From positions 3,597,501-3,661,500 of the forward strand of contig CP126168.1 of the NCBI GenBank assembly GCA_032881465.1: a DNA stretch of 64,000 nt. The letters are read 5' to 3'. This stretch comes from Parvibaculaceae bacterium PLY_AMNH_Bact1 (GTDB lineage Bacteria > Pseudomonadota > Alphaproteobacteria > Parvibaculales > Parvibaculaceae). A model generated the notes under the pieces. That model ran no database searches and had not been told where the DNA came from. It saw nothing but the letters and a program-made list of their open reading frames with translations. Shown in pieces: positions 3,400-16,278 of this stretch. Position numbers and translations under genes: made by a program. Position 1 is the first letter of the stretch, and the number at the start of each line of letters is the position of its first letter.

Positions 3400-4665
3400 T
3401 TAGGTATTCATGCTGTCGAAGAATTCAGCATTGTTTTTGGTCTGTTTAAGCTTATCGAGCAGGAACTCAATCGCATCGGTTGTGCCCATGGGATTAAGGA
3501 TCCGGCGCAGCACATACATTTTCTGCAGCTCGACCTTGTCGACCAGGAGCTCCTCTTTCCGGGTACCGGATTTGAGAATATCCATCGCCGGGAAGACACG
3601 TTTGTCGGCAACCTTGCGATCAAGCACCAGTTCCGAGTTACCGGTCCCTTTAAATTCTTCGAAGATCACTTCGTCCATACGGCTACCGGTATCAATGAGT
3701 GCGGTAGAGATAATCGTGAGCGATCCACCTTCTTCAATGTTCCGCGCCGCGCCGAAGAAGCGTTTCGGCCGCTGCAGGGCATTGGCATCCACACCACCGG
3801 TGAGCACCTTGCCGGAACTTGGAACCACCGTGTTGTAGGCGCGACCAAGACGGGTAATGCTATCAAGCAGGATCACCACATCGCGCCCATGCTCCACCAG
3901 GCGCTTGGCTTTCTCAATCACCATTTCGGCAACCTGAACGTGACGCACGGCCGGCTCGTCGAAGGTAGAGGAGACAACCTCGCCCTTCACCGAGCGCTTC
4001 ATATCCGTCACCTCTTCCGGCCGCTCATCAATCAACAGCACGATCAGATAGGCTTCGGGATGATTGGCGGAAATCGAGTGCGCAATGTTTTGCAGCAAGA
4101 CCGTCTTACCGGTCCGTGGCGGCGCCACAATGAGACCACGCTGTCCCTTCCCTAAAGGCGCCACAATGTCGATCACCCGACCGGACGTATCTTTCCGGGT
4201 TGGATCATCGATTTCCATTTCCAGTTTTTCGTCTGGATAAAGCGGCGTCAGATTGTCGAAATGGACTTTGTGGCGGGCTTCTTCAGGGTCAGCAAAATTG
4301 ATGGAGTTGACCTTGATGAGCGCAAAGTAGCGTTCGCCCTCTTTTGGACTGCGAATATCACCTTCAACCGTATCTCCTGTACGCAGAGAGAACCGGCGGA
4401 TCTGTGAGGGGGAGACATAAATGTCGTCGGGACCGGGCAGATAGTTGGCTTCTGGAGACCGCAGGAAACCAAACCCGTCCTGCAGAACCTCGACGACACC
4501 TTCGCCGATAATGTCGGTTTCCCGTTCAGCATATTGCTTCAGGATCGCAAACATCAGCTCCTGGGTGCGCAGCGTGCTCGCGTTTTCAACCTCAAGCTCT
4601 TCTGCCACAACCAACAGTTCGGTGGGCGACTTGGCTTTCAGCTCTTGCAGTTTGATCTGCTTCAT
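3400..4665 (-). CDS. rho: Transcription termination factor Rho
   Basis: Hexameric RNA helicase that ends transcription. The 421 residues match the usual length. An N-terminal Rho domain is followed by the cold-shock RNA-binding fold with [12 protein letters not shown] (residues 65-75), Walker A APPRTGKT (181-188), a Walker B ending ILLDSITR, and the Q/R loops in [20 protein letters not shown]. The start [10 protein letters not shown] is conventional. It has a leader of about 310 nt from the predicted promoter, plus a possible short leader ORF coupled to its start codon, compatible with the autoregulation known for rho in other bacteria. The rho-haem-origin order is typical of alphaproteobacteria. 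Confidence 0.98.
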
Positions 4666-4844
4666 ATTTTTTCTCGTGATGTGCTTATTACCTGAAAGGC
4701 AGGAAGCAAAAGGAAGGAAAGAGATTTCTTAAAATCTTCAGTCTTGGGATCTGTTTTTGGATAAATTCTGTGAGATCTGTCTATCGACCAGCAAACCTGT
4801 TTGCTGAGGAGAAATCTGGAACGCAGCCACGAATGAAATCTCAT
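4662..4844 (-). CDS. Possible rho leader peptide ORF (60 aa)
   Basis: Short ORF in the rho leader whose TGA overlaps the rho ATG in an ATGA arrangement, which usually means translational coupling. The peptide is basic, with no domain I recognise. Its own ribosome binding site is poor (GGGA, too far upstream), so it may not be translated. The rho genes of some bacteria have a leader peptide (rhoL), but I see no sequence similarity I could defend. Confidence 0.3.
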
Positions 4845-4883
4845 GGTGCGGATGTGAATGTCCCAAAAGGCGTCGCCTGACTC

Positions 4884-4914
4884 AGATCTTCAAAAGGAGA
4901 AAAAGATCTTCAAA
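4884..4914. repeat. Paired 11-bp direct repeats in the rho leader
   Basis: AGATCTTCAAA occurs at 4884 and again at 4904, exactly 20 bp apart, about two helical turns. It could be a protein-binding site or an RNA element in the 5' leader of rho. The 388-bp gap 4666-5053 otherwise holds the candidate promoter, the leader ORF and a short perfect hairpin (CCGGGA at 4956-4961 with TCCCGG at 4965-4970). Confidence 0.4.
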
Positions 4915-4984
4915 GTGGGAAGGTCGGCCGCCCGGCGCCCAATTCTGGTCGCGCTCCGGGAGGATCCCGGCGGGTGTTAAACAT

Positions 4985-5013
4985 CATATAGCCCCTGGTG
5001 CCCGAGGCGACAA
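4985..5013 (-). promoter_or_regulatory. Candidate housekeeping promoter of rho
   Basis: Read on the minus strand: TTGTCG (-35, 5008-5013), a 17-bp spacer, then TATATG (-10, 4985-4990). Both hexamers are close to the sigma-70 consensus, and the spacing is ideal. Transcription from here would give rho a leader of about 310 nt. Confidence 0.55.
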
Positions 5014-5053
5014 GCCAAAAAACAACCTTGCTGCAGATCTCACATGCCTGCAT

Positions 5054-5503
5054 TCAGAACGGTCGGACAATGACCAGGATCACAATGAAGATGGTGAGCA
5101 CCGGCGGCACCTCATTGAGGATCCGCATCTGCCGAGAGGTATAAGGCCGTTCGTCCCGTGCGAAGGCCTTCCGCCAACGCGACAAAAACCCGTGATAGGC
5201 CGCCATGACAGTGACAAGCAGCAGTTTCACATGGAACCAGCCATCTGAACCAATGCTGTCCCACAAAAGCCAGGCAAGAGTGAGCCCAAGCGCCCAGGCC
5301 GCGATCATCGCTGGATTGATAATCCGCCGCAGCAGCAGCTCTTCCATCTTTTTATAGTTTTCAGAGAGCTCAGAACCAGGTTCCGTCTCCGTGTGGTAGA
5401 CGTAAAGCCGGGGCAGATAATACATGCCTGCCATCCAGAAAATCACACTGATGATGTGAAAAGCTTTGATCCACGGATAATAGTCGAGCAGAAAATCAGT
5501 CAT
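5054..5503 (-). CDS. hemJ: Protoporphyrinogen IX oxidase HemJ
   Basis: Oxidises protoporphyrinogen IX to protoporphyrin IX in the inner membrane, the step before ferrochelatase. The 149-residue protein has four hydrophobic segments, including HIISVIFWMAGMYYLPRL near residue 16 and a C-terminal VLTIFIVILVIVRPF. It carries the conserved early histidine and the HVKLLLV lysine segment of the HemJ (formerly UPF0093) family. It follows hemH and hemE on the same strand, so the cluster encodes three haem steps. No HemG or HemY is visible in the window. Confidence 0.93.
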   Translation of the reverse strand: MTDFLLDYYPWIKAFHIISVIFWMAGMYYLPRLYVYHTETEPGSELSENYKKMEELLLRRIINPAMIAAWALGLTLAWLLWDSIGSDGWFHVKLLLVTVMAAYHGFLSRWRKAFARDERPYTSRQMRILNEVPPVLTIFIVILVIVRPF

Positions 5504-5536
5504 TTCGATCTCAAAACAAACTAGTTAGACAATGCC

Positions 5537-6622
5537 TTAAAGACGGTTTCCAGGGCAGATCCCACCAGCAAGCTCCTCTGGGCAGATCATATCATCACTT
5601 GTCAGCACCGCCCTCACCTGATCACCTAATTCCCGGATAAAGGCCGGATGGGTCCCCACCGCTGGAACCCGAATATAGGTTTCAACACCAGACCTCTTAG
5701 CAAGCTCTCCATATTCAATATCGAGCTCAACCAGGGTCTCTGAATGTTCTGAAACAAAGGCGATGGGCGCCAGGACAATTTTCCGGCCATCTCTGCCAGC
5801 GCGCTCAATTTCATCGTCTGTTGACGGCCCAATCCATTCCAGAGGCCCCACCCGGCTTTGGTAACAGGTCACCCAGTCGAGATTTGAGATAGCCAGTTCC
5901 TTCGCAACAGCTGCGCAGGTACGCTCAACTTGCCGCTGGTATGGATCACCAGCCTCCACCACCTTTTTGGGGAGTCCATGCGCTGAAAAAAGAACCCGCA
6001 CATTATCAACACTCCCTGCCTGATCGATACCTTGGCGGATGAGAGCGGCTTGCGCTTCTATCCATCCAGACGCTTCTGGATAACAACAAATCTCTTTTGT
6101 TTCCAACGACTTAGATAAAGTCTTAGATAAAGTACTACCAGGCCCTACTTGCTTTGCCCAGGCCTGTTTCCAGTCCTTAAGAGATGAGGCGGTGGTCGTC
6201 GTTGAATATTGCGGATAGAGCGGCAAAAGCACGATCTTGTCAGGATTGAAGGCCGCGACTTTGGCAGCTGCCTCACCAGCAAATGGATGCCAATAGCGCA
6301 TGGCGATGAAACATTTCACATCGCCCCCATTCTCATTTAGGTCTGAGAGTACCCGTTCGATTGCCTCAGCCTGACGTTCTGTTTCCGGAACAATCGGCGA
6401 TCTGCCTCCAATATGACCATAAATCTCCCGCGCAATCGCCGCGCGCCTGGAGGATATAATTTTGGCAATCAACCAGCGAAAAGGTTGAGGAACGCTGATA
6501 ATCGCCTTGTCTGAGAAGAGATTGAAGAGAAACGGCTTCACCGCATCCGGACTGTCTGGCCCACCCAGATTGAACAGCACCACGGCGATGCGTTGACCCC
6601 CAGCTCCAACCTTTTCAGACAT
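5537..6622 (-). CDS. hemH: Ferrochelatase
   Basis: Inserts ferrous iron into protoporphyrin IX to make protohaem. It has the N-terminal LFNLGGPDSPDAVKPF, the catalytic histidine in SAHGLP, and VSEHSETLVELD with the conserved histidine and glutamate. Its 361 residues are slightly long because of a loop containing the directly repeated TLSK TLSK, encoded by an exact 12-bp tandem duplication. It has an internal ICCYPE and two cysteines near the C-terminus. Some alphaproteobacterial ferrochelatases bind a [2Fe-2S] cluster, but the cysteine set here looks incomplete, so this stays open. It starts 2 bp beyond the hemE stop, in the same operon. Confidence 0.97.
   Translation of the reverse strand: MSEKVGAGGQRIAVVLFNLGGPDSPDAVKPFLFNLFSDKAIISVPQPFRWLIAKIISSRRAAIAREIYGHIGGRSPIVPETERQAEAIERVLSDLNENGGDVKCFIAMRYWHPFAGEAAAKVAAFNPDKIVLLPLYPQYSTTTTASSLKDWKQAWAKQVGPGSTLSKTLSKSLETKEICCYPEASGWIEAQAALIRQGIDQAGSVDNVRVLFSAHGLPKKVVEAGDPYQRQVERTCAAVAKELAISNLDWVTCYQSRVGPLEWIGPSTDDEIERAGRDGRKIVLAPIAFVSEHSETLVELDIEYGELAKRSGVETYIRVPAVGTHPAFIRELGDQVRAVLTSDDMICPEELAGGICPGNRL
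6110..6133. repeat. In-frame 12-bp tandem duplication inside hemH
   Basis: CTTAGATAAAGT is present twice head to tail with no mismatch, encoding the doubled TLSK on the minus strand. The identity suggests a recent slippage event in a surface loop. Confidence 0.8.
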
Positions 6623-6624
6623 AT

Positions 6625-7662
6625 TTAGCCCCGCACCCGTTTGATAAGCCGCTCGACATTTTCCGGTGGCGCTTGTGGCACAATCCCGTGACCAAGATTA
6701 AAGATCCAGGGGCCCTTACCAAGCGTTTCAAGCAGATGATCTATTGCCCGGTCCATTTCAGAGCCGCCAGCCACAAGAAGCAACGGATCCAGATTACCCT
6801 GCACAGGACCGATGGGCTGTAAAACCTTTGCAGCCCATGCGGGATCAACAGAAGTATCGAGACTGATCGCGCTCACACCCGTCTCTTTGAAATAGGTTTC
6901 GTATGCGGCACCGGCCCCTTTCGGAAAAGCGATGACCGGCACATCAGGGCAAGATTTCTTGAGCCGAGCCCGCAAAGTTTTGATGGGCTCAAGGCAGAAA
7001 CGCCGGAACTGATCAGCGGGCAATGATCCTGCCCAGGTATCAAAGATCTGCAGCACTTCGGCACCCGCTCTTACCTGAGCTTCCAGATAGTCGCCTGTCA
7101 CTTCTGTCAGTAGATCAATCAGCGACTGAAACCCATCAGGATCGCCATAGGCCCACGCCTTAGCAGCCCCTTGATCGGGCGAGCCTCTCCCCCCCACCAT
7201 GTAGGTTGCCACCGTCCAGGGCGCTCCTGCAAAGCCAATAAGCGCTGTTTCTTTTGGAAGTTCCTGTCGTAACCCTTTGACAGTCTCAAAGACCGGCGCG
7301 AGATGCTCAATCACTCGAGATCGATCAAGAGCCTTCAGACCTTCCACATCAACAATCGGATCAAGACGAGGTCCAACGCCTTCCTCAAACCAGACCTTCT
7401 GACCAAGGGCGTCCGGCACCACAAGAATGTCAGAGAAAAGGATCGATGCATCAAATCCATACCGCCTGATAGGTTGCAGGGTCACTTCTACCGCAAGCTC
7501 TGGCGTGTAGCAGAGATTCAAAAAGCTCCCCGCTTTTGCCCGTGTCTCCCGGTACTCAGGAAGATATCGGCCGGCCTGACGCATCAACCAGATCGGTGGA
7601 TGGTCAAAGACTTCTCCTGAAAGAGCCCGAAGAAATTTTTTGTCTGAAACTGGTTTGCTCAT
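6625..7662 (-). CDS. hemE: Uroporphyrinogen decarboxylase
   Basis: Decarboxylates the four acetate groups of uroporphyrinogen III to give coproporphyrinogen III in the cytosol. The 345-residue protein has the signature [18 protein letters not shown] near residue 22, [33 protein letters not shown] and [15 protein letters not shown]. It is the first gene of the leftward haem operon, with hemH 2 bp behind. It forms the left border of the candidate replication origin, as in Caulobacter. Confidence 0.98.
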
Positions 7663-7972
7663 AACACCTTCTAGGTCTTTGGCTAGGGCTCTGACTAGTA
7701 CGTGGATCCGTTGCCAGTCCTCTTTAAAGGACGTGCGTCATACACTTATCCCGCGTGTCGCCTCTTATATAGAATCTTATAAAAGGATGTAGTGGATAGT
7801 GGATGCCTGTGGAGATCGGGGATTAAATTTTGTCCCCGAAACTGCCCGAAAATTCAGAGCATTTTGTCACATGTCGCAATTCCATGAGCGCTGGATCACG
7901 AATGTGAATGACTCTGGCCAATCGAAAAAGAGTCCACGACAGTATAGGGACTTGAACTGTGCAGAACATCCA

Positions 7973-7999
7973 TGTGGATAAAACGAACCATGGGGATAA
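7973..7999 (-). promoter_or_regulatory. DnaA box pair
   Basis: 7973-7981 reads TGTGGATAA, a perfect DnaA box on the minus strand. 7991-7999 reads TGGGGATAA, one mismatch, same orientation, 18 bp further on. Confidence 0.7.
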
Positions 8000-8146
8000 G
8001 TTCAGATGATAGGGCTTTGCCCTACTTGTCCCCGTTTTTCCCAACCCCTGAAATGGCGTTTGTTAACGATGAACAGAAGCGTCGATGAAAAAAGAAACAC
8101 GGGTATGACCAAGTAGGGCCTTAACAAAACCGGGGACTTATGCCGG

Positions 8147-8165
8147 TTTTCCACACTCATCCACA
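8147..8165 (+). promoter_or_regulatory. DnaA box pair
   Basis: 8147-8155 reads TTTTCCACA and 8157-8165 reads TCATCCACA. Each has one mismatch to TTATCCACA, and they are 10 bp apart, on the same face of the helix. They face the opposite way to the 7973/7991 pair. Confidence 0.6.
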
Positions 8166-8321
8166 GGCCCTCACATTCCTCACCTTTGCTTAAGAGATCT
8201 TAACGAAAGTCTGGCTATCAACTGCAAGCCCCGATAGTTTTAGGCGACTTTGCGCCGCAACCATATTCGCCTTCAAACGCTCCAAAAAGCGCCGCTCAAC
8301 GGCGTTCGGAAATTCAACCAC

Positions 8322-9134
8322 ATGACAAGCCGTCGACTCTTTCATCTTCATCTCGTTTCTGACGCAACAGGCGAGACACTGAACGCAGTGGCGCGCGCAG
8401 CCTGTGCGCAATATGAAGATGTCAGCCCCGTCGAGCACATCTATGCGCTTGTGCGCGGCCCCAAACAGCTTGATCGAGCGATTGCCGAGATTGAACGTGA
8501 GCCCGGACTTGTCATGTTTACGATGGTGAATGAGAAACTGCGTGATCAATTGTTGGAGCGTTGCGGTGAACTCGACATTCCCTGTATCTCGGTTTTGGAT
8601 CCCGTGATCAATGCGCTCGGCACCTATCTCGGTCGGGAGATTTCCCACAAACCTGGTGTCCAACATGAAATGAATGCGGAATATTTTGATCGCATTGCGG
8701 CACTCAACTTCACGATGGCCCATGATGATGGGCAGACAGCCGGCGACCTCGATGACGCAGATATCATCTTGGTGGGCGTAAGCCGCACCTCAAAAACACC
8801 CACCTGCATATATCTTGCAAATCGGGGCATTAAAGCAGCGAACGTACCCTTCGTTCCGAACACACCCTTGCCGCCTGATTTGGAAACGGCCACCAGTCCC
8901 TTGATTGTGGGATTGGTTGCAAGCGTTGACCGGCTCTCACAAATTCGCAAAAACCGATTGCTCTCTCTAAATGAGCAAACAGAAACCGATTATGTGGACA
9001 AAGATCTGATCACATCAGAACTTGCCGAAGCCCGTCGGTTTTTCAACAAACATAGCTGGCCGGTGATCGATGTGACCCGACGATCGGTTGAGGAGACCGC
9101 CGCTGCTATCCTCAATCTCTACAGCCGCCAATAG
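8322..9134 (+). CDS. ppsR: Pyruvate, phosphate dikinase regulatory protein (DUF299, RP001 homologue)
   Basis: Bifunctional ADP-dependent kinase and Pi-dependent pyrophosphorylase that switches PpsA or PpdK off and on by threonine phosphorylation. It opens with RRLFHLHLVSDATGETL, then has the P-loop-like GVSRTSKTPT and the C-terminal SWPVIDVTRRSVEETAA. The frame is open from 8250, but the family starts at the ATG at 8322, giving 270 residues. The first genes of a rightward group follow (maf, aroE, coaE, dnaQ). Which dikinase it controls is not visible here. Confidence 0.93.
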   Translation: MTSRRLFHLHLVSDATGETLNAVARAACAQYEDVSPVEHIYALVRGPKQLDRAIAEIEREPGLVMFTMVNEKLRDQLLERCGELDIPCISVLDPVINALGTYLGREISHKPGVQHEMNAEYFDRIAALNFTMAHDDGQTAGDLDDADIILVGVSRTSKTPTCIYLANRGIKAANVPFVPNTPLPPDLETATSPLIVGLVASVDRLSQIRKNRLLSLNEQTETDYVDKDLITSELAEARRFFNKHSWPVIDVTRRSVEETAAAILNLYSRQ

Positions 9135-9172
9135 TCAAAACAGGTTAGTCTCCCCAATGATTGGTCTCCCAA

Positions 9173-9769
9173 ATGTCTGATACGCCCACTCTTATTCTTG
9201 CGTCGCGCAGCGGAGTGCGCGCCATGCTGCTTGAAAATGCTGGTGTGTCCTTTCGCGTTGAAGTTTCGCCCGTCGATGAGGCGGAAGCGAAAATGGGCTT
9301 TGAAGGCAATGGCACCGCGCTCGCAGAGCACCTTGCAGAACTTAAAGCACAGGCTGTCAGTGCAGAAGCACGTGATCAATTTGTCATCGGCGCTGACCAG
9401 GTGCTGACCTGCGATGCCCGTCTGTTTGACAAACCAAGAGATTTGGACGAAGCCCGAAAAAACCTCTGCTTCTTCCGCGGCAAAACACACACGCTGCACA
9501 GTGCAGTCGCCGTGTCCCGCAGCGGAGAGATTGTCTGGAGTCATGTGACCCAGGCTCATCTCACCATGCGGGAGTTTTCAGACGACTATCTCGACCATTA
9601 CATAAGGCGCACTGGCGAAAAAATACTTTCAAGCGTGGGTTGCTATCAGTTGGAAGGGCCCGGCGTTCAATTGTTTGAACGCATAGAGGGTGACTATTTT
9701 ACGATCCTTGGTCTGCCCCTGATGCCGCTCTTTGAGTATTTGCGTAAAGAAGGCGCTCTAGAGACATGA
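9173..9769 (+). CDS. maf: Maf family nucleotide pyrophosphatase
   Basis: Hydrolyses non-canonical or methylated nucleoside triphosphates to monophosphates. Conserved elements are the early [17 protein letters not shown], the acidic FVIGADQV segment, FDKPRD and the late [13 protein letters not shown]. The start at 9173 ([13 protein letters not shown]) fits the family better than the upstream in-frame TTG at 9161. It follows ppsR by 38 bp and precedes aroE by 10 bp, a standard alphaproteobacterial order. Confidence 0.92.
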
Positions 9770-9779
9770 GCGTAGGGGC

Positions 9780-10637
9780 ATGACCAAACTATCCCGTGTC
9801 TGGGTGCTGGGCTGGCCGGTTACCCACTCGCGCTCTCCGCTGATCCACAATCATTGGATCAAAAAACTGGGCATCAAAAATTCAGTCTATGAAAAGCATG
9901 GTGTGCCGCCGGAAAAATTGAACGCAACGCTGTCCTCACTTCGAGAGCAAGGCGTCATTGGCGCCAATGTCACTGTGCCACACAAGGAAGCAGTGTTTGC
10001 AGCGCTCACCCATCATGATGAGGCCGCACGACGGTTGAAGGCTGTCAATACGATTGTAGATTGTGGCACTCATTTCGAAGGGCGCAACACCGATGGCTAT
10101 GGGTTCATGGCGAACCTGAAAGTGGGTGCTCCCAACATTGATTTTACGTCAAAGCCCGCGATGGTCTTAGGCGCTGGCGGGGCCGCTCGCGCGATCCTGG
10201 TAGCGCTGGCAGACGCGGGCGTTCCAGAAATCCGTCTGGTAAACCGAACTGTCGAAAAAGCCGCCGCTCTGCTCACCGAACTTAACGTCAAAGGCGACGC
10301 CCTTTCATGGGACGATGCGCCAGATGCGCTGCAAGAGGCTGGCCTTCTGGTCAACACATCCTCTCTGGGCATGACCGGCATGGACCCTCTGGATCTGTCC
10401 CTTGAGAAACTCGAACCCTCTGCACTGGTGACCGACATTGTCTACTCACCGTTGGAAACGGATCTGCTTGCGCGCGCACGGACACGCGGCAACGCTACTG
10501 TTGATGGTTTGGGCATGCTGCTGCACCAGGCTGTGCCGGGCTTTGAGGCTTGGTTCGGCGTACGGCCCGAAGTAACGCCAGAACTTCGCGCGCTGATACT
10601 AGAAGATTTAAACTCAGATGATGGGGGAGAAAACTAA
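9780..10637 (+). CDS. aroE: Shikimate dehydrogenase (NADP+)
   Basis: Reduces 3-dehydroshikimate to shikimate in aromatic amino acid synthesis. Substrate-binding residues appear in [12 protein letters not shown], and the catalytic lysine in NVTVPHKE. The dinucleotide-binding motif is LGAGGAARA (near residue 130), and the C-terminal GLGMLLHQA is typical. Its 285 residues are the usual length. Its TAA is directly followed by the coaE ATG with no spacer, so the two are co-transcribed. Confidence 0.97.
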
Positions 10638-11258
10638 ATGCTCTTGATTGGCCTCACAGGTTCCATCGGCATGGGGAAATCGGAAACCGCCAAAATGTTT
10701 GCCGCAGAAGGTGTGCCCGTCTATGACGCAGACGCGGAGGTGCACAAGCTCTATGCACCTGGCGGCGCGGCGGTAGCACCCTTGGCAGAAGCCTTTCCTG
10801 GTGTCGTGAAAGACGGTGCGGTTGATCGTGCGCTCCTCTCCAAAGAAGTTATCGGCAAGCCAGAAGCGCTGAAAAAACTTGAAAGCATTGTGCACCCTCT
10901 CGTGGGTCAGGCGAACCGGGCCTTCCTGGAGAACGCCGTCAAAGACGGTGCGGAGATGGTGTTGCTGGATATCCCACTGCTGTTTGAAACCGGCGGCCGC
11001 GAACGGGTGGACGTCATTGTGGTCGTGAGTGCGCCTTATGAGTTGCAGCGCGAACGGGTGTTGGCGCGGCCGGATATGAGTGAAGAAAAGTTTGAGGAAA
11101 TTTTTGCAAAGCAGGTAAGCGATGCCGACAAGCGTGCTGGCGCCGACTATATTGTTGAAAGCGATAAGGGACTGGAGCATGCCCGCGCGCAGGTCCGCAA
11201 GATCATCGCAGACCTAAAAGGCCGCGATGGTGAGGTTCTGAAAAAACTGCTTGGGTAG
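10638..11258 (+). CDS. coaE: Dephospho-CoA kinase
   Basis: Last step of coenzyme A synthesis: ATP-dependent phosphorylation of the 3'-hydroxyl of dephospho-CoA. The P-loop is [12 protein letters not shown] at residues 5-16. It is followed by [24 protein letters not shown] and [17 protein letters not shown]. It starts immediately after the aroE stop. The window also carries coaA, the first step of the same pathway, about 19 kb away. Confidence 0.97.
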
Positions 11259-11279
11259 ACGTGCTTGTGGGGGCACACA

Positions 11280-11322
11280 GCGTTTCCAGGAAAAGTGAGT
11301 AGCGGTTTTCCGTCCGGAAACA
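11280..11322. repeat. Dispersed palindromic repeat, AAAAGTG/CGGTTTTCCG type
   Basis: Imperfect palindrome with outer arms GCGTTTCC and GGAAACAC and an inner GGAAAAGTG facing CGGTTTTCC. It fills most of the 90-bp gap between coaE and dnaQ, and it resembles the copies at 32140 and 59391. Confidence 0.6.
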
Positions 11323-11348
11323 CGGCGAAAGAATGAGTGGGGAATTGA

Positions 11349-12041
11349 ATGCGTGAGATCGTACTCGATACGGAAACGACGGGGATCAGTCCGAAAGAAG
11401 GCCACCGGCTGGTGGAAATCGGATGTGTGGAATTAGAGAACCACATGCCCACCGGCGAGACCTATCACGTCTATATCAATCCGGAACGCGAAATGTCCGA
11501 AGGGGCGTTTCAAGTGCATGGGCTGTCAGACGAGTTCCTCGCGGACAAACCAAAATTCGATGAAGTCGCAGACGAATTTCTGGCCTTTGTGAAGGACGCA
11601 CCGCTGGTCATTCACAACGCCTCCTTCGATATGGGCTTTTTGAACGCCGAATTGAAAATGACAAACCGCCCGCTGCTCCCTGACGCGCAAGCGGTCGATA
11701 CGCTTGCCATGGCACGGAAGAAATATCCCGGTGGTCAGAACAGCCTCGACGCACTTTGCCGCCGCTTCAGTGTCGACAATTCAAACCGGGTAAAACACGG
11801 CGCGCTTCTTGATAGTGAATTGTTGGCCGAAGTCTATCTGGAGCTCATCGGCGGTCGCGAGCCAGGTCTGAGCCTTGCTGCCGAAGCGGTGAGCGGCACA
11901 GATGCCAGCGGCAAGATCAGCCATGTAGTGCGCAAAGAGCGGCCGAAACCGTTGGCCTCTCGTATTACGGACGAAGAGCGCACCGCTCACCAGGCGTTCG
12001 TCGCCACACTTGGCGAAGAAACGCTCTGGAAAGATGCCTGA
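11349..12041 (+). CDS. dnaQ: DNA polymerase III epsilon subunit (3'-5' exonuclease)
   Basis: Proofreading exonuclease of the replicative polymerase. The DEDDh motifs are complete: Exo I LDTETTG (residues 6-12), Exo II HNASFDMGFL (near 92), and Exo III VKHGALLDSELLAEVY (near 150) with the catalytic histidine. At 230 residues it is of family length. A palindromic repeat separates it from coaE. Its stop codon lies inside a hairpin shared with convergent secB. Confidence 0.97.
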   Translation: MREIVLDTETTGISPKEGHRLVEIGCVELENHMPTGETYHVYINPEREMSEGAFQVHGLSDEFLADKPKFDEVADEFLAFVKDAPLVIHNASFDMGFLNAELKMTNRPLLPDAQAVDTLAMARKKYPGGQNSLDALCRRFSVDNSNRVKHGALLDSELLAEVYLELIGGREPGLSLAAEAVSGTDASGKISHVVRKERPKPLASRITDEERTAHQAFVATLGEETLWKDA

Positions 12042-12056
12042 CGATTAAGCGTCAGG
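12037..12056. terminator. Bidirectional terminator-like hairpin between dnaQ and secB
   Basis: CCTGACG (12037-12043) and CGTCAGG (12050-12056) pair perfectly around a 6-base loop. The stem contains the TGA of dnaQ and part of the TAA of secB. T-rich tracts follow in both directions, so it can end both transcripts. Confidence 0.6.
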
Positions 12057-12548
12057 ACGTTCTTTCTCACCAGCTTCCTGCTGCGCCTGCATCTGCTGAC
12101 GGAAGAGCTGTGCGAAATCGATCGGGTCCACCATCAATGGTGGGAAGCCACCGTCGCGTGTGACATCTGCGATAATACGACGGGCAAATGGGAAGATGAG
12201 GCGCGGACACTCAATCAGCAAAACCGCCTGCATGCTTTCCTGGGGAATGTTGGCAACTTTGAAGACGCCTGCATATTCAAGCTCGGCAAGAAAGAGCTGC
12301 TTGCCACCTATCTTCGCATCCACTTTCAGCTTCAGCACCACTTCGAAGTCGGTATCAGCAAGAGGGTTCACGCCAACGTCGACATTAACACCAATCTGTG
12401 GCGCATCATCCTGGGGTGCCAGACTTCCCGGCACGTTGGGGCTTTCAAAAGAAAGATCTCGCACATATTGAGTGATCACTCGAAGCTGCGGACCAGCCTG
12501 ACCGTCGCTGCCTGCGTTTCCTGCTTCTGTTTGATCTGTCTCTGCCAT
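12045..12548 (-). CDS. secB: Protein-export chaperone SecB
   Basis: Tetrameric chaperone that keeps precursors unfolded and hands them to SecA. It has the family sequence AQYVRDLSFE-like ITQYVRDLSFESPN, then DVGVNPL, FLAELEYAGVFKV and LIECPRLIFPFARRIIADVTRDGGFPPLMVDPIDF in short conserved pieces. The ATG at 12548 (MAETDQTEAG) gives 167 residues. The frame stays open upstream to 12596, but that stretch runs into a palindromic repeat and is unlikely to be translated. Confidence 0.96.
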   Translation of the reverse strand: MAETDQTEAGNAGSDGQAGPQLRVITQYVRDLSFESPNVPGSLAPQDDAPQIGVNVDVGVNPLADTDFEVVLKLKVDAKIGGKQLFLAELEYAGVFKVANIPQESMQAVLLIECPRLIFPFARRIIADVTRDGGFPPLMVDPIDFAQLFRQQMQAQQEAGEKERPDA

Positions 12549-12590
12549 GCCGTCTCCCGTTCTGCGGATCAACTCACGCGCCCGCTTGCA

Positions 12591-12686
12591 GAGCATTTCC
12601 AGCTGAAGTTGCAGACTTCAGCGTCCGGAAATGCGCTAAAAAATATCAGAGCGCTTCACCTGAACCAATTAGAGGTAAAGAGCTCT
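12591..12686. repeat. Composite palindromic element (two consecutive palindromes)
   Basis: First palindrome 12591-12636: GAGCATTTCCAGCTGAAG facing CTTCAGCGTCCGGAAATGCGC. Second, weaker palindrome 12648-12686: outer arms AGAGC and GCTCT. The two-part layout matches the elements at 23156, 32140 and 35474. It lies between the secB start and the fxsA end, and may supply secB upstream signals. Confidence 0.65.
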
Positions 12687-12739
12687 GAATTGCGGACAGT
12701 GGCTATCATGGAATATGGGCGTTTCACAAGCGCTGACGA

Positions 12740-13309
12740 TTAGGAGTCTTTAGGGGGGATCCATCGGCCACTACCGGAAGGTGGACCAGCAGGTGTGCCA
12801 TCATTCGGCGCATCATCATTGTCAGCGGCAGGGGGCGGGGCATCCACTTCCTCTGCTTGCCCTTCAACAATCGTTGTATCTGGGGACCGCGCGCTCGGAT
12901 CTCTCTCTGCAGAGTTTTGAGCAAACCCGGCATTGGCGTGAACATGAACGGTCCCGTTTTTGGCAAACCACTTCATGGCCGCTCGCGCCAGCATTAACCG
13001 GACAGGATGGACGAAGAGCAGAAATCCAGCGATGTCGGTGAGAAAACCAGGCGTTAAAAGAAGCGCGCCCGCAATCACGAGACAAAAGCCGTGCACGACT
13101 TCTTCTACCGGAAGACGGCCTTCACTCATGGCTGCCTGTGCACGGCCGAAAGCGGCCAGACCCTGAGCGCGCAAAAGGCTGGTTCCCAAGAGGGCAGTCA
13201 GGATCACAATCCCTATAGTAGGCCACAGGCCGATCATGCCGCCGACTTCAATGAAGACAGCAATCTCCGCAATGGGAACAAGGACAAAGGCGAGAAAAAC
13301 AAAGGGCAT
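12740..13309 (-). CDS. fxsA: FxsA family membrane protein
   Basis: Small inner-membrane protein. E. coli FxsA relieves exclusion of phage T7 by the F plasmid, but the general role is unknown. Hydrophobic segments cover residues 1-20, 28-45 and about 75-105. Family motifs are PIAEIAVFIEVG, GTSLLRAQG and LTPGFLTDIAGFLL. The last 60 residues are polar, acidic and proline-rich, longer than in E. coli. It is divergent from the Tim44-like gene. Confidence 0.9.
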   Translation of the reverse strand: MPFVFLAFVLVPIAEIAVFIEVGGMIGLWPTIGIVILTALLGTSLLRAQGLAAFGRAQAAMSEGRLPVEEVVHGFCLVIAGALLLTPGFLTDIAGFLLFVHPVRLMLARAAMKWFAKNGTVHVHANAGFAQNSAERDPSARSPDTTIVEGQAEEVDAPPPAADNDDAPNDGTPAGPPSGSGRWIPPKDS

Positions 13310-13577
13310 GTGCGACCTTTAAGCATGTCTGAGTGGATCGAGGCCACGTCGCTGCGCAAAAGGCACCAGACAGGAAAACACCAGATTAGACCAGTTCGGT
13401 TGATTTCGAACAAAACAGGCCGTTCATCAGGGCAATAAGTGGCAATAGAACACCATATGCCCTAGATTACCCTCAACAGATAAGCGTTCCTGAGATTGTT
13501 TCAAAGATGATTGATGCAATAGAAGGTGCGCCTCCCCTTGCGGGTCCACGGCAACCAGATGCCGGAAGCCGACCCCA

Positions 13578-14306
13578 ATGACAGGTAGCAACCGTTTTAT
13601 GAGCAGCGACTTTAGCATTATCAATTTGATCCTCTTGGTGGTCGCTGTCGTGGTCTTCCTGAAACTGCGCAGCGTGCTTGGACGCCGCACCGGCGAAGAG
13701 CGACGGCCCTTCGACCCTTACGCCGCCCATGAGCAGTCGCAGGACAATGACAAAGACAATGTGATCAATCTGCCAGGCTCCCGCACACCAGATGCATCGC
13801 GCGAAGCAGCACCAGAGGCTCCCTCACCGCAAATCCGCGGTGTTAAGCCGGGTTCCGAGATTGAACAGCAATTGACGGAACTCACCTTGGCAGACCGCCG
13901 ATTTGACGGGGATGAATTCTTAGGTGGTGCCAAACTCGCCTATGAGATGATTGTCACAGCCTTTGCGGGGGGGGATCGCACGACCTTGCAGCCCCTTCTC
14001 GCAGCTGAAGTCTTTGAAAGCTTCGATGGCGCCATTGATGCGCGCGAAAAGCGCGGCGAAACCATAGAGATGAGTTTTATCGGCCTCAAATCAGCTGAAT
14101 TCGCGAAGGCCCTGGTGAACGGTAACCAGTCCCTCATCACGGTGAAATTCGTAAGTGAGCAAACCTCATCGACAAAAAATCAGGACGGTGTAGTGATTGA
14201 GGGAGACCCCGTCACCGTTCGTGAAGTCGTTGATGTCTGGACCTTCGAGCGTGACATCACCAGCCGTGACCCGAACTGGCACCTGGTCGCCACGGGCGGC
14301 GCTTAA
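13578..14306 (+). CDS. Tim44/TimA domain membrane-anchored protein
   Basis: One N-terminal membrane segment (NLILLVVAVVVFLKLR, about residues 16-31) is followed by an acidic linker. A Tim44-like domain then runs from LTLADRRFDGDEFLGGAKLAYEMIV to the end. The mitochondrial Tim44 homologue tethers Hsp70 to the import channel; in alphaproteobacteria this protein (TimA) has no settled function. The start may be 13578 (weak GGAAG 10 bases before) or the ATG at 13599. It heads a run of close genes with mltA, smr and the XRE gene. Confidence 0.88.
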   Translation: MTGSNRFMSSDFSIINLILLVVAVVVFLKLRSVLGRRTGEERRPFDPYAAHEQSQDNDKDNVINLPGSRTPDASREAAPEAPSPQIRGVKPGSEIEQQLTELTLADRRFDGDEFLGGAKLAYEMIVTAFAGGDRTTLQPLLAAEVFESFDGAIDAREKRGETIEMSFIGLKSAEFAKALVNGNQSLITVKFVSEQTSSTKNQDGVVIEGDPVTVREVVDVWTFERDITSRDPNWHLVATGGA

Positions 14307-14320
14307 TCGGTCGCGGGTTC

Positions 14321-15637
14321 GTGACCTTGAATGGCCCAGTCTCCTCAGCACGATCAGTCTCTTCAGCACCCGAAGAAACGTGCTTTGAGACATCCAAATC
14401 GAACCCCAGATTCAGCACCGGCCCTACCGCGAAATACCTATTTTCAACGGTCGTTTTCGGCCTGTTTCTGGGGCTTGCAGCCTGCACCGACCCGGAACCG
14501 ACACCGGAGGAACAGGTGAACGATCTCTCCGGCCCTACTTTGTCAGCGACCGCCTTTGAGGCCCTACCCGGCTGGGCAAGCGACGACCAGGGAGCAGCTT
14601 TAGAGGCGTTCCGCAGGTCCTGTGATCGCATCCTTGCTGCGAGCCCTGCCAGGACCCTTGATGCCAAAACCGGGGATGCCATCAATTATGGCACCGTCGG
14701 CGATTGGCAGCCGGTCTGTCGGGAGGCACTCTCCTCAATCGCAGCTGCTGATCCACGCGGCTTTTTTGAAAAGCACTTCCAAGCTTTCGCGGTGAGGACC
14801 GAAACTGGACCGAACGGTCTCATGACTGGCTATTACGAACCGGAGATTGAGGCAAGCCTCGCCCGTGAAGGCCCCTATCAGACACCGCTCCTGGCGAAAC
14901 CAGACGACCTGCAAAGACTCGATCTGGGCGAATTTGATCCGACCCTTAAAGGAGAGACCGTTCGCGGCCGTTTGGAAGCCGGGCGCTTTGTCCCCTATCC
15001 CGATAGAGCAGCCATCAATGGGGGCGCTCTTGATCCTGCCGTCCTGGCGGTCGCCTGGGTGAAAGACCCAGTGGATGCATTTTTCACCCATATTCAGGGG
15101 TCTGCGCGGCTTAAGCTGCCTGATGGGTCTGTTTCGCGGGTCGGCTTTGCGGAAAAAAACGGCCGTCCCTACACCGCCATCGGCAAGGTTCTGATTGAGC
15201 GCGGCGCCCTTTCCCGCGAAACGGCCTCGATGGCGAGCATCCGCGATTGGCTGGCAGCAAACCCCGGAGAAATGCAATCTGTCCTGGAAGCGAACCGGTC
15301 TTACGTCTTTTTCACGCGCAGAAATGTCAGCGACCCAGGTCTGGGACCTGTTGGCGCGGGCGGTGTTGCCCTCACCCCGGGCCGGAGCTTGGCGGTCGAT
15401 CGGCGCACCCATGCACTGGGCGCACCTCTCTGGTTTGAGGCTGTGTTGCCGGGTGACAGCGATCCAACACAGAAATTGATGGTGGCTCAGGACACAGGCT
15501 CGGCCATTCGTGGGTCTGTGCGCGGCGACTATTTTTGGGGCTCTGGTGCGGATGCAGGCGCGAAGGCCGGTGAGATGAAGGCGGACGGCCGGTTCTGGGT
15601 GCTCTTGCCAATGGCGCTTGCCGCCAATCAGAGGTAG
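14321..15637 (+). CDS. mltA: Membrane-bound lytic murein transglycosylase A
   Basis: Cleaves the glycan strands of peptidoglycan to anhydromuramyl products, anchored to the outer membrane as a lipoprotein. The lipobox LGLAAC ends near residue 55 after a hydrophobic stretch. The MltA domain has GLMTGYYEPEIEAS and RGRLEAGRFVPYPDRAAI. A 3D domain at the C-terminus includes LMVAQDTGSAIRGSVRGDYFW in parts, with its catalytic aspartates. The GTG start gives an unusually long 35-residue stretch before the signal peptide, so the true start may be later, but no good alternative ATG is present. Confidence 0.93.
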   Translation: MTLNGPVSSARSVSSAPEETCFETSKSNPRFSTGPTAKYLFSTVVFGLFLGLAACTDPEPTPEEQVNDLSGPTLSATAFEALPGWASDDQGAALEAFRRSCDRILAASPARTLDAKTGDAINYGTVGDWQPVCREALSSIAAADPRGFFEKHFQAFAVRTETGPNGLMTGYYEPEIEASLAREGPYQTPLLAKPDDLQRLDLGEFDPTLKGETVRGRLEAGRFVPYPDRAAINGGALDPAVLAVAWVKDPVDAFFTHIQGSARLKLPDGSVSRVGFAEKNGRPYTAIGKVLIERGALSRETASMASIRDWLAANPGEMQSVLEANRSYVFFTRRNVSDPGLGPVGAGGVALTPGRSLAVDRRTHALGAPLWFEAVLPGDSDPTQKLMVAQDTGSAIRGSVRGDYFWGSGADAGAKAGEMKADGRFWVLLPMALAANQR

Positions 15638-15642
15638 GGCCG

Positions 15643-16278
15643 GTGGCGCGCAAACCGACCGATTTCTCTACCCCTACCGGGTATGACCGCAAACGCCGGA
15701 GAACCTTAACGCGGGACGAAGCGGCTCTCTGGCGCAAGGTGACCGAAGATACGACGCCCCGTCCAGGACGAAAGCAGGAAGTGGCAGATCTGCCAGAGAC
15801 CACTGTTGAACCATCCAAAAAAAAGGTTCCGTTCTCGAAACAAGTAAAGCGCCCCAACGCGCCAATGGCACATCAGGCGCCGCCACTCAAACGAGGCCCG
15901 ACGGCACCACCACTCAATGCATTGGACAATCGGACCGCCAAACGGCTGGTTCGGGGTCAGTTAACGCCCGATGCTCGCCTCGATTTGCACGGAGCTACCC
16001 GGCACTCCGCTGAACCGACCCTTTTGCGCTTTGTAATTGATGCCCGCGCCCAGGGAAAACGCCTTGTTCTGGTCATCACCGGAAAAGGCGCTCCGGGACA
16101 TCTTTTGCATGGACGCGATTTTCACGCCGATCCGGAACGCCGGTCGGTGCTGCGGGATCTGGTGCCGCGCTGGCTGAACGAACCTCAGTTTCGCACCCAC
16201 GTGGCAGGCTTTCAGCCAGCCCACCCGAAACATGGCGGAGGCGGCGCCCTGTATCTTTGGCTGAGGCGGCACCGATGA
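15643..16278 (+). CDS. Smr domain DNA/RNA nuclease-like protein
   Basis: C-terminal Smr domain (about residues 105-211) with RLDLHGATRHSAEP, LVLVITGKG and the final HPKHGGGGALYLWLRR. These are the motifs of the stand-alone Smr (MutS2-related) endonuclease family. The first 100 residues are basic and probably disordered. The GTG start lies 5 bp after the mltA stop. Its end overlaps the following regulator gene by an ATGA, so translation is probably coupled. Specific substrate unknown. Confidence 0.9.
   Translation: MARKPTDFSTPTGYDRKRRRTLTRDEAALWRKVTEDTTPRPGRKQEVADLPETTVEPSKKKVPFSKQVKRPNAPMAHQAPPLKRGPTAPPLNALDNRTAKRLVRGQLTPDARLDLHGATRHSAEPTLLRFVIDARAQGKRLVLVITGKGAPGHLLHGRDFHADPERRSVLRDLVPRWLNEPQFRTHVAGFQPAHPKHGGGGALYLWLRRHR

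Follow-up and report, generated by a model that had tools for sequence, protein, structure and literature searches.

A probable Caulobacter-type replication origin between hemE and ppsR in a Parvibaculaceae bacterium, with a candidate unwinding module that recurs in the Alphaproteobacteria

Introduction

The replication origin of Caulobacter crescentus, Cori, lies between hemE and CC0001, a COG1806 gene, and combines a cluster of DnaA boxes with an AT-rich region and a nearby parS (PMC1914354, PMC6399470), the latter located about 8 kb away (PMC6399470). In Cori there are five sites for CtrA (TTAA-N7-TTAA) and one for IHF, and its G-boxes are only moderate, its W-boxes weak (PMC1914354, PMC4468827); CtrA sites have been reported not to be seen in alphaproteobacterial origins other than that of Caulobacter (PMC4468827). 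In Rickettsia prowazekii, the origin has been predicted between the identical gene pair (hemE and RP001; PMC1914354). A different body of work has described the basal unwinding system (BUS) of Bacillus subtilis oriC and its relatives, an ordered arrangement of AT-rich DNA, trinucleotide repeats, a GC spacer and a DnaA box on the matching strand (PMC8287927, PMC6669920). The main texts of the DnaA-trio papers used for comparison here make no mention of Caulobacter, and no origin study for Parvibaculum was found in a literature search.

Here we analyze a 64-kb stretch (hereafter the window; genome positions 3,597,501–3,661,500) of the single-contig, 3,741,076-bp genome of a Parvibaculaceae bacterium whose nearest named relatives are Rhodobiaceae/Parvibaculaceae, such as 'Alpha proteobacterium Mf 1.05b.01' (99% PpsR identity). 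A preliminary description had pointed to a 659-bp gap in this window, bordered by the gene pair of the Caulobacter origin, as a likely replication origin. Both genes and the limits of the gap (genome 3,605,163–3,605,821; 53% AT) were confirmed (Table 1), and the origin assignment itself gains support from GC skew, parS, the clustering of DnaA boxes and a class-wide gene order. The gap is most probably an ordinary oriC of the Caulobacter type, and the class-wide unwinding module, with the GANTC site within it, is the more interesting part.

Results

Table 1. Features of the hemE-ppsR gap and its border genes (window coordinates; a dot in the strand column marks features without a strand)
Feature	Position	Strand	Basis
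hemE, uroporphyrinogen decarboxylase, left border	6625..7662	-	NCBIfam TIGR01464, 411 bits
Probable oriC, intergenic between divergent hemE and ppsR	7663..8321	.	genes, GC skew, conserved gene order
Predicted duplex-unwinding element CTTATATAGAATCTTATAAAAGGATGTA, lowest stability within the gap	7764..7791	.	nearest-neighbour energy; same position in other gaps
GANTC site 1, GAATC (CcrM-type), inside unwinding element	7772..7776	.	sequence count
Trio-like repeat TAGTGGA TAGTGGA TGCC (degenerate DnaA-trio array and GC spacer)	7790..7807	+	sequence; aligned conservation
Unwinding-proximal DnaA box TGTGGAGAT, 5'-ATCTCCACA on minus strand, two mismatches, family-wide	7808..7816	-	alignment
GGGGATTAAA, conserved beside 7808 box; possible second weak DnaA site	7818..7827	.	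alignment
GANTC site 2, GACTC	7910..7914	.	sequence count
GANTC site 3, GAGTC	7930..7934	.	sequence count
DnaA box 1, TTATCCACA, perfect	7973..7981	-	sequence; genus conservation
DnaA box 2, TTATCCCCA, one mismatch	7991..7999	-	sequence; kept in genus and several family members
Inverted-repeat arms GCCCTACTTG / CAAGTAGGGC between box pairs (within 8019..8137)	8019-8028, 8110-8119	.	partly conserved
Weak DnaA-box-like TTGTCCCCG in conserved block; putative DnaA site	8026..8034	+	alignment
Inverted-repeat arms GTCCCCGTTTTT / AAAACCGGGGAC between box pairs (within 8019..8137)	8028-8039, 8126-8137	.	partly conserved
DnaA box 3, TTTTCCACA, one mismatch	8147..8155	+	sequence; genus comparison
DnaA box 4, TCATCCACA, one mismatch	8157..8165	+	sequence; genus comparison
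TTAAGAGATCTTAA, TTAA-N6-TTAA palindrome, not CtrA N7 spacing; 5/7 genus members	8190..8203	.	sequence, genus comparison
ppsR-like (DUF299 / COG1806), right border, ATG at 8322	8322..9134	+	NCBIfam NF003742, 339 bits

GC skew was sampled over 20 kb in every 40 kb, with the origin region taken complete, for a total of 55% of the genome (2.06 Mb), and the same sample was used for DnaA-box clusters. Across the chromosome, cumulative skew is lowest in the 20-kb bin at 3.60 Mb, with its maximum opposite, near 1.58–1.6 Mb. A change-point fit locates the shift at window position 9,501, with a block-bootstrap 95% interval (4,001–16,001) that contains the gap. The raw cumulative skew is nearly flat over 45 kb (3.605–3.65 Mb), with almost tied values at window positions 9,201, 19,328 and 49,256, and skew alone therefore cannot pick out the gap. 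These near-ties lend some appeal to an origin situated within tens of kb, in a different gap of the flat-skew region (window 4,000–50,000), but that region holds no other DnaA-box cluster, and the deeply conserved gene pair and the unwinding element belong to the gap at 7663–8321, making a displaced origin very improbable.

The genome encodes dnaA 136 kb from the gap, at position ~650. An origin near dnaA, with the gap reduced to a regulatory region that merely contains DnaA boxes, would be in keeping with the many bacteria that begin replication at this gene and with the placement of contig base 1 there. Cumulative skew at dnaA, however, stands 1833 above the minimum and forms no minimum of its own, and parS lies by the gap and not by dnaA; exactly two copies of parS (TGTTNCACGTGNAACA) occur in the genome, at 3,590,320 and 3,592,363, 13–15 kb from the gap. 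Furthermore, in a single-contig relative of the Parvibaculum group (G015, genus g5) dnaA is 1.39 Mb away from ppsR, which has parS 15–19 kb from it, and an origin at dnaA can be considered extremely unlikely. The skew inflection that the preliminary description had named as a check is thus found beside the gap, and the reading of the gap as origin survives it. In the sister species (G002), a local skew minimum (3,136,224) falls 1.3 kb from the start of ppsR (3,134,934), with dnaA at 3,268,064. The GC skew of the G015 chromosome is disordered, and this disorder, together with the distance between dnaA and the ppsR-parS region, suggests rearrangement.

Beyond the window, 15 kb leftward of the gap, one parS is accompanied by a perfect DnaA box, with 61 bp between the two starts (genome 3,590,320–3,590,389). 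The identical 61-bp offset is seen in G002, and in G015 a parS is accompanied by two perfect boxes, at offsets of +94 and +127. A link between DnaA and parS is possible.

All 30 relatives that were fetched retain the hemE-gap-ppsR arrangement, as does every one of the 38 named loci with an identified hemE; of the 20 distant alphaproteobacterial families sampled, 19 retain it too. In the exception (G117, family f81, L220), the 2.3 kb upstream of ppsR contain no hemE.

As initially described, the gap contains one perfect and three near-perfect DnaA boxes, arranged as two same-strand pairs facing in opposite directions. Sites that differ from TTATCCACA by no more than one base number 323 in the sample of 2.06 Mb, a rate of 0.10 per 659 bp, and seven of these are perfect. 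With four boxes in 193 bp, the gap is the densest cluster in this sample, with at most three boxes per 659 bp and at most two per 250 bp elsewhere. Over the whole genome, 545 sites match TTATCCACA with at most one mismatch, versus 525 for the reversed pattern; lone DnaA boxes are therefore uninformative, and the cluster alone is informative. The spacing between boxes (18/156/10 bp) is constant in most of the genus, the bases around them vary, and a 10-bp pair of the type formed by boxes 3 and 4 is retained in other genera of the family. Many Parvibaculum gaps hold just 0–3 boxes with one mismatch or less. Between the box pairs, GAAAAAAGAAACACGGGTATGACCAAGTAGGGC (8087–8119) shows strong conservation across the genus and partial conservation in Parvibaculum, and in some relatives its left partner is GGTCATACCCG, yielding an inverted pair.

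The preliminary inventory of boxes, GANTC sites and a TTAA pair was accurate in what it listed, but it overlooked the predicted unwinding element at 7764–7791. The instability of its stretch 7766–7791, computed as nearest-neighbour energy, is matched by a fraction of only 9.5e-5 of sampled genome windows (32 loci). It is followed by TAGTGGATAGTGGATGCC and then by the DnaA box TGTGGAGAT, and alignment identifies the block spanning 7764–7827, and not the four boxes, as the best conserved across the family. The energy minimum occupies the same place, beside a trio-like repeat and a DnaA box, in the gaps of the family, with the exception of L109, where the gap includes undetermined bases. Among 19 distant families, TAG, TGG or TTG repeats come after the energy minimum in most cases, and a TGTGGAT-like box often does.

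Across 34 lineages, the in-phase TNG score is 3.3, where shuffles give 2.2 (Wilcoxon p ~5e-5), and the box match is 2.0 mismatches versus 3.1 (p ~6e-6), both p-values being optimistic because of incomplete independence among the lineages. At the middle position of the TNG trios, counted across the class, A occurs 39 times, T 38, G 33 and C 2. Trio phase is broken in the genus of the host, which scores 2 against 2.2 in shuffles. Under a trio rule of at least three in-phase NAN no more than 16 bp from a box, the 7808 box gives no match, and a permissive match occurs at a box at 7791–7799, of a kind that 35% of shuffled gaps also yield somewhere. In one locus of genus g4 (L110), a textbook trio array, TAGTGGTAGTAGTAGTACCCTGTGGATAA, adjoins the unstable element at gap position ~147–205.

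The three GANTC sites noted earlier are present, although their number is unremarkable, being weakly above the 0.86 expected at the genome rate of 1.31 per kb. One of them lies inside the unwinding element, and such an overlap between GANTC and the unstable stretch occurs in 20 of 34 lineages, as opposed to 5.5 ± 2.1 (maximum 12) in 1000 dinucleotide shuffles, and, outside the Parvibaculaceae, in 12 of 25 versus 3.9 in shuffles. For seven further palindromes with matching composition, the count is 0–5 of the 34 lineages. The genome encodes RAMA-domain (CcrM-type/CcrM-like), GcrA and DUF1153 (SciP-type) genes. A perfect DnaA box is located outside the window at genome position 507,426, ~200 bp upstream of gcrA (506,752–507,222, minus strand).

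The TTAA-N6-TTAA pair is likewise real, and only six such sites occur in the 2.06 Mb sampled. Its center varies among five close species and the palindrome is missing from two others. A role of the pair as a CtrA site was rejected, because the spacing is N6 instead of the required N7 and no TTAA-N7-TTAA site, exact or relaxed, is present in the gap. No match to the IHF consensus (WATCAN5WTR or WATCARN4TTR) was detected in the gap, where degenerate sites could still occur, and an Rfam search of the 64-kb window returned no RNA family.

Discussion

On the sequence evidence assembled here, the hemE-ppsR gap is almost certainly the chromosomal oriC of this Parvibaculaceae bacterium, at a location orthologous to that of the Caulobacter and Rickettsia origins. 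The proposal that boxes and conserved blocks are only promoter or operator elements of hemE and ppsR, with DnaA acting as a transcription factor, draws on the need for a gap between divergent genes to hold both promoters, but it is hardly credible given that a scan of the gap for sigma-70-like promoters gave no match and that an origin predicts just such a conserved arrangement, with unstable DNA, repeats and a DnaA box in order, together with the skew and parS. The placement of the origin fixes the map of replication strand and gene dosage for a genome whose assembly begins 136 kb off, at dnaA.

The position of the gap, the skew, the proximity of parS, the box cluster, and the instability and conservation of the element provide the static basis for a putative initiation mechanism. 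DnaA would load on the facing box pairs at 7973/7991 and 8147/8157, as well as on weaker sites, and may then extend toward the hemE-proximal box at 7808. From this box, DnaA would engage one strand of the repeat at 7790–7807, presumably leading to the opening of the AT-rich element at 7764–7791, on which helicase could be loaded and from which two forks would leave. The conserved unwinding module offers a specific predicted site of melting that can be tested in alphaproteobacterial origins.

In E. coli, GATC sites lie in the unwinding region of oriC and may tie its opening to the cell cycle. By analogy, GANTC methylation at the predicted melting site could play a parallel role. A tentative and somewhat doubtful generalization is that hemE-type alphaproteobacterial origins may represent a class-wide variant of the BUS, composed, in order, of an AT-rich element frequently containing a CcrM (GANTC) site, 5'-TNG-3' trios with a middle base not restricted to A, a GC stretch, and a DnaA box flanked by GGGGAT, in which GANTC methylation could couple opening to the cell cycle.

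The gap and the B. subtilis-type BUS have their overall order in common, and a DnaA box with no more than two mismatches is found beside the repeats (TGTGGAGAT, 7808–7816, two mismatches). On the other hand, the repeat in the genus of the host consists of TAGTGGA x2 with broken phase, and A, T and G share the middle position of the alphaproteobacterial TNG about equally, where the published BUS rule has a conserved A (PMC8287927). With respect to R. prowazekii, the gap is longer and less AT-rich (659 bp and 53% AT versus 384 bp and 82.5% AT for the predicted origin). Compared with Cori, it lacks CtrA N7 and IHF consensus sites and has one perfect TTATCCACA box. It shows the traits of a Cori-type oriC, with hemE and a COG1806 gene as borders, a DnaA-box cluster, a skew minimum, an AT-rich unwinding region and parS within tens of kb.
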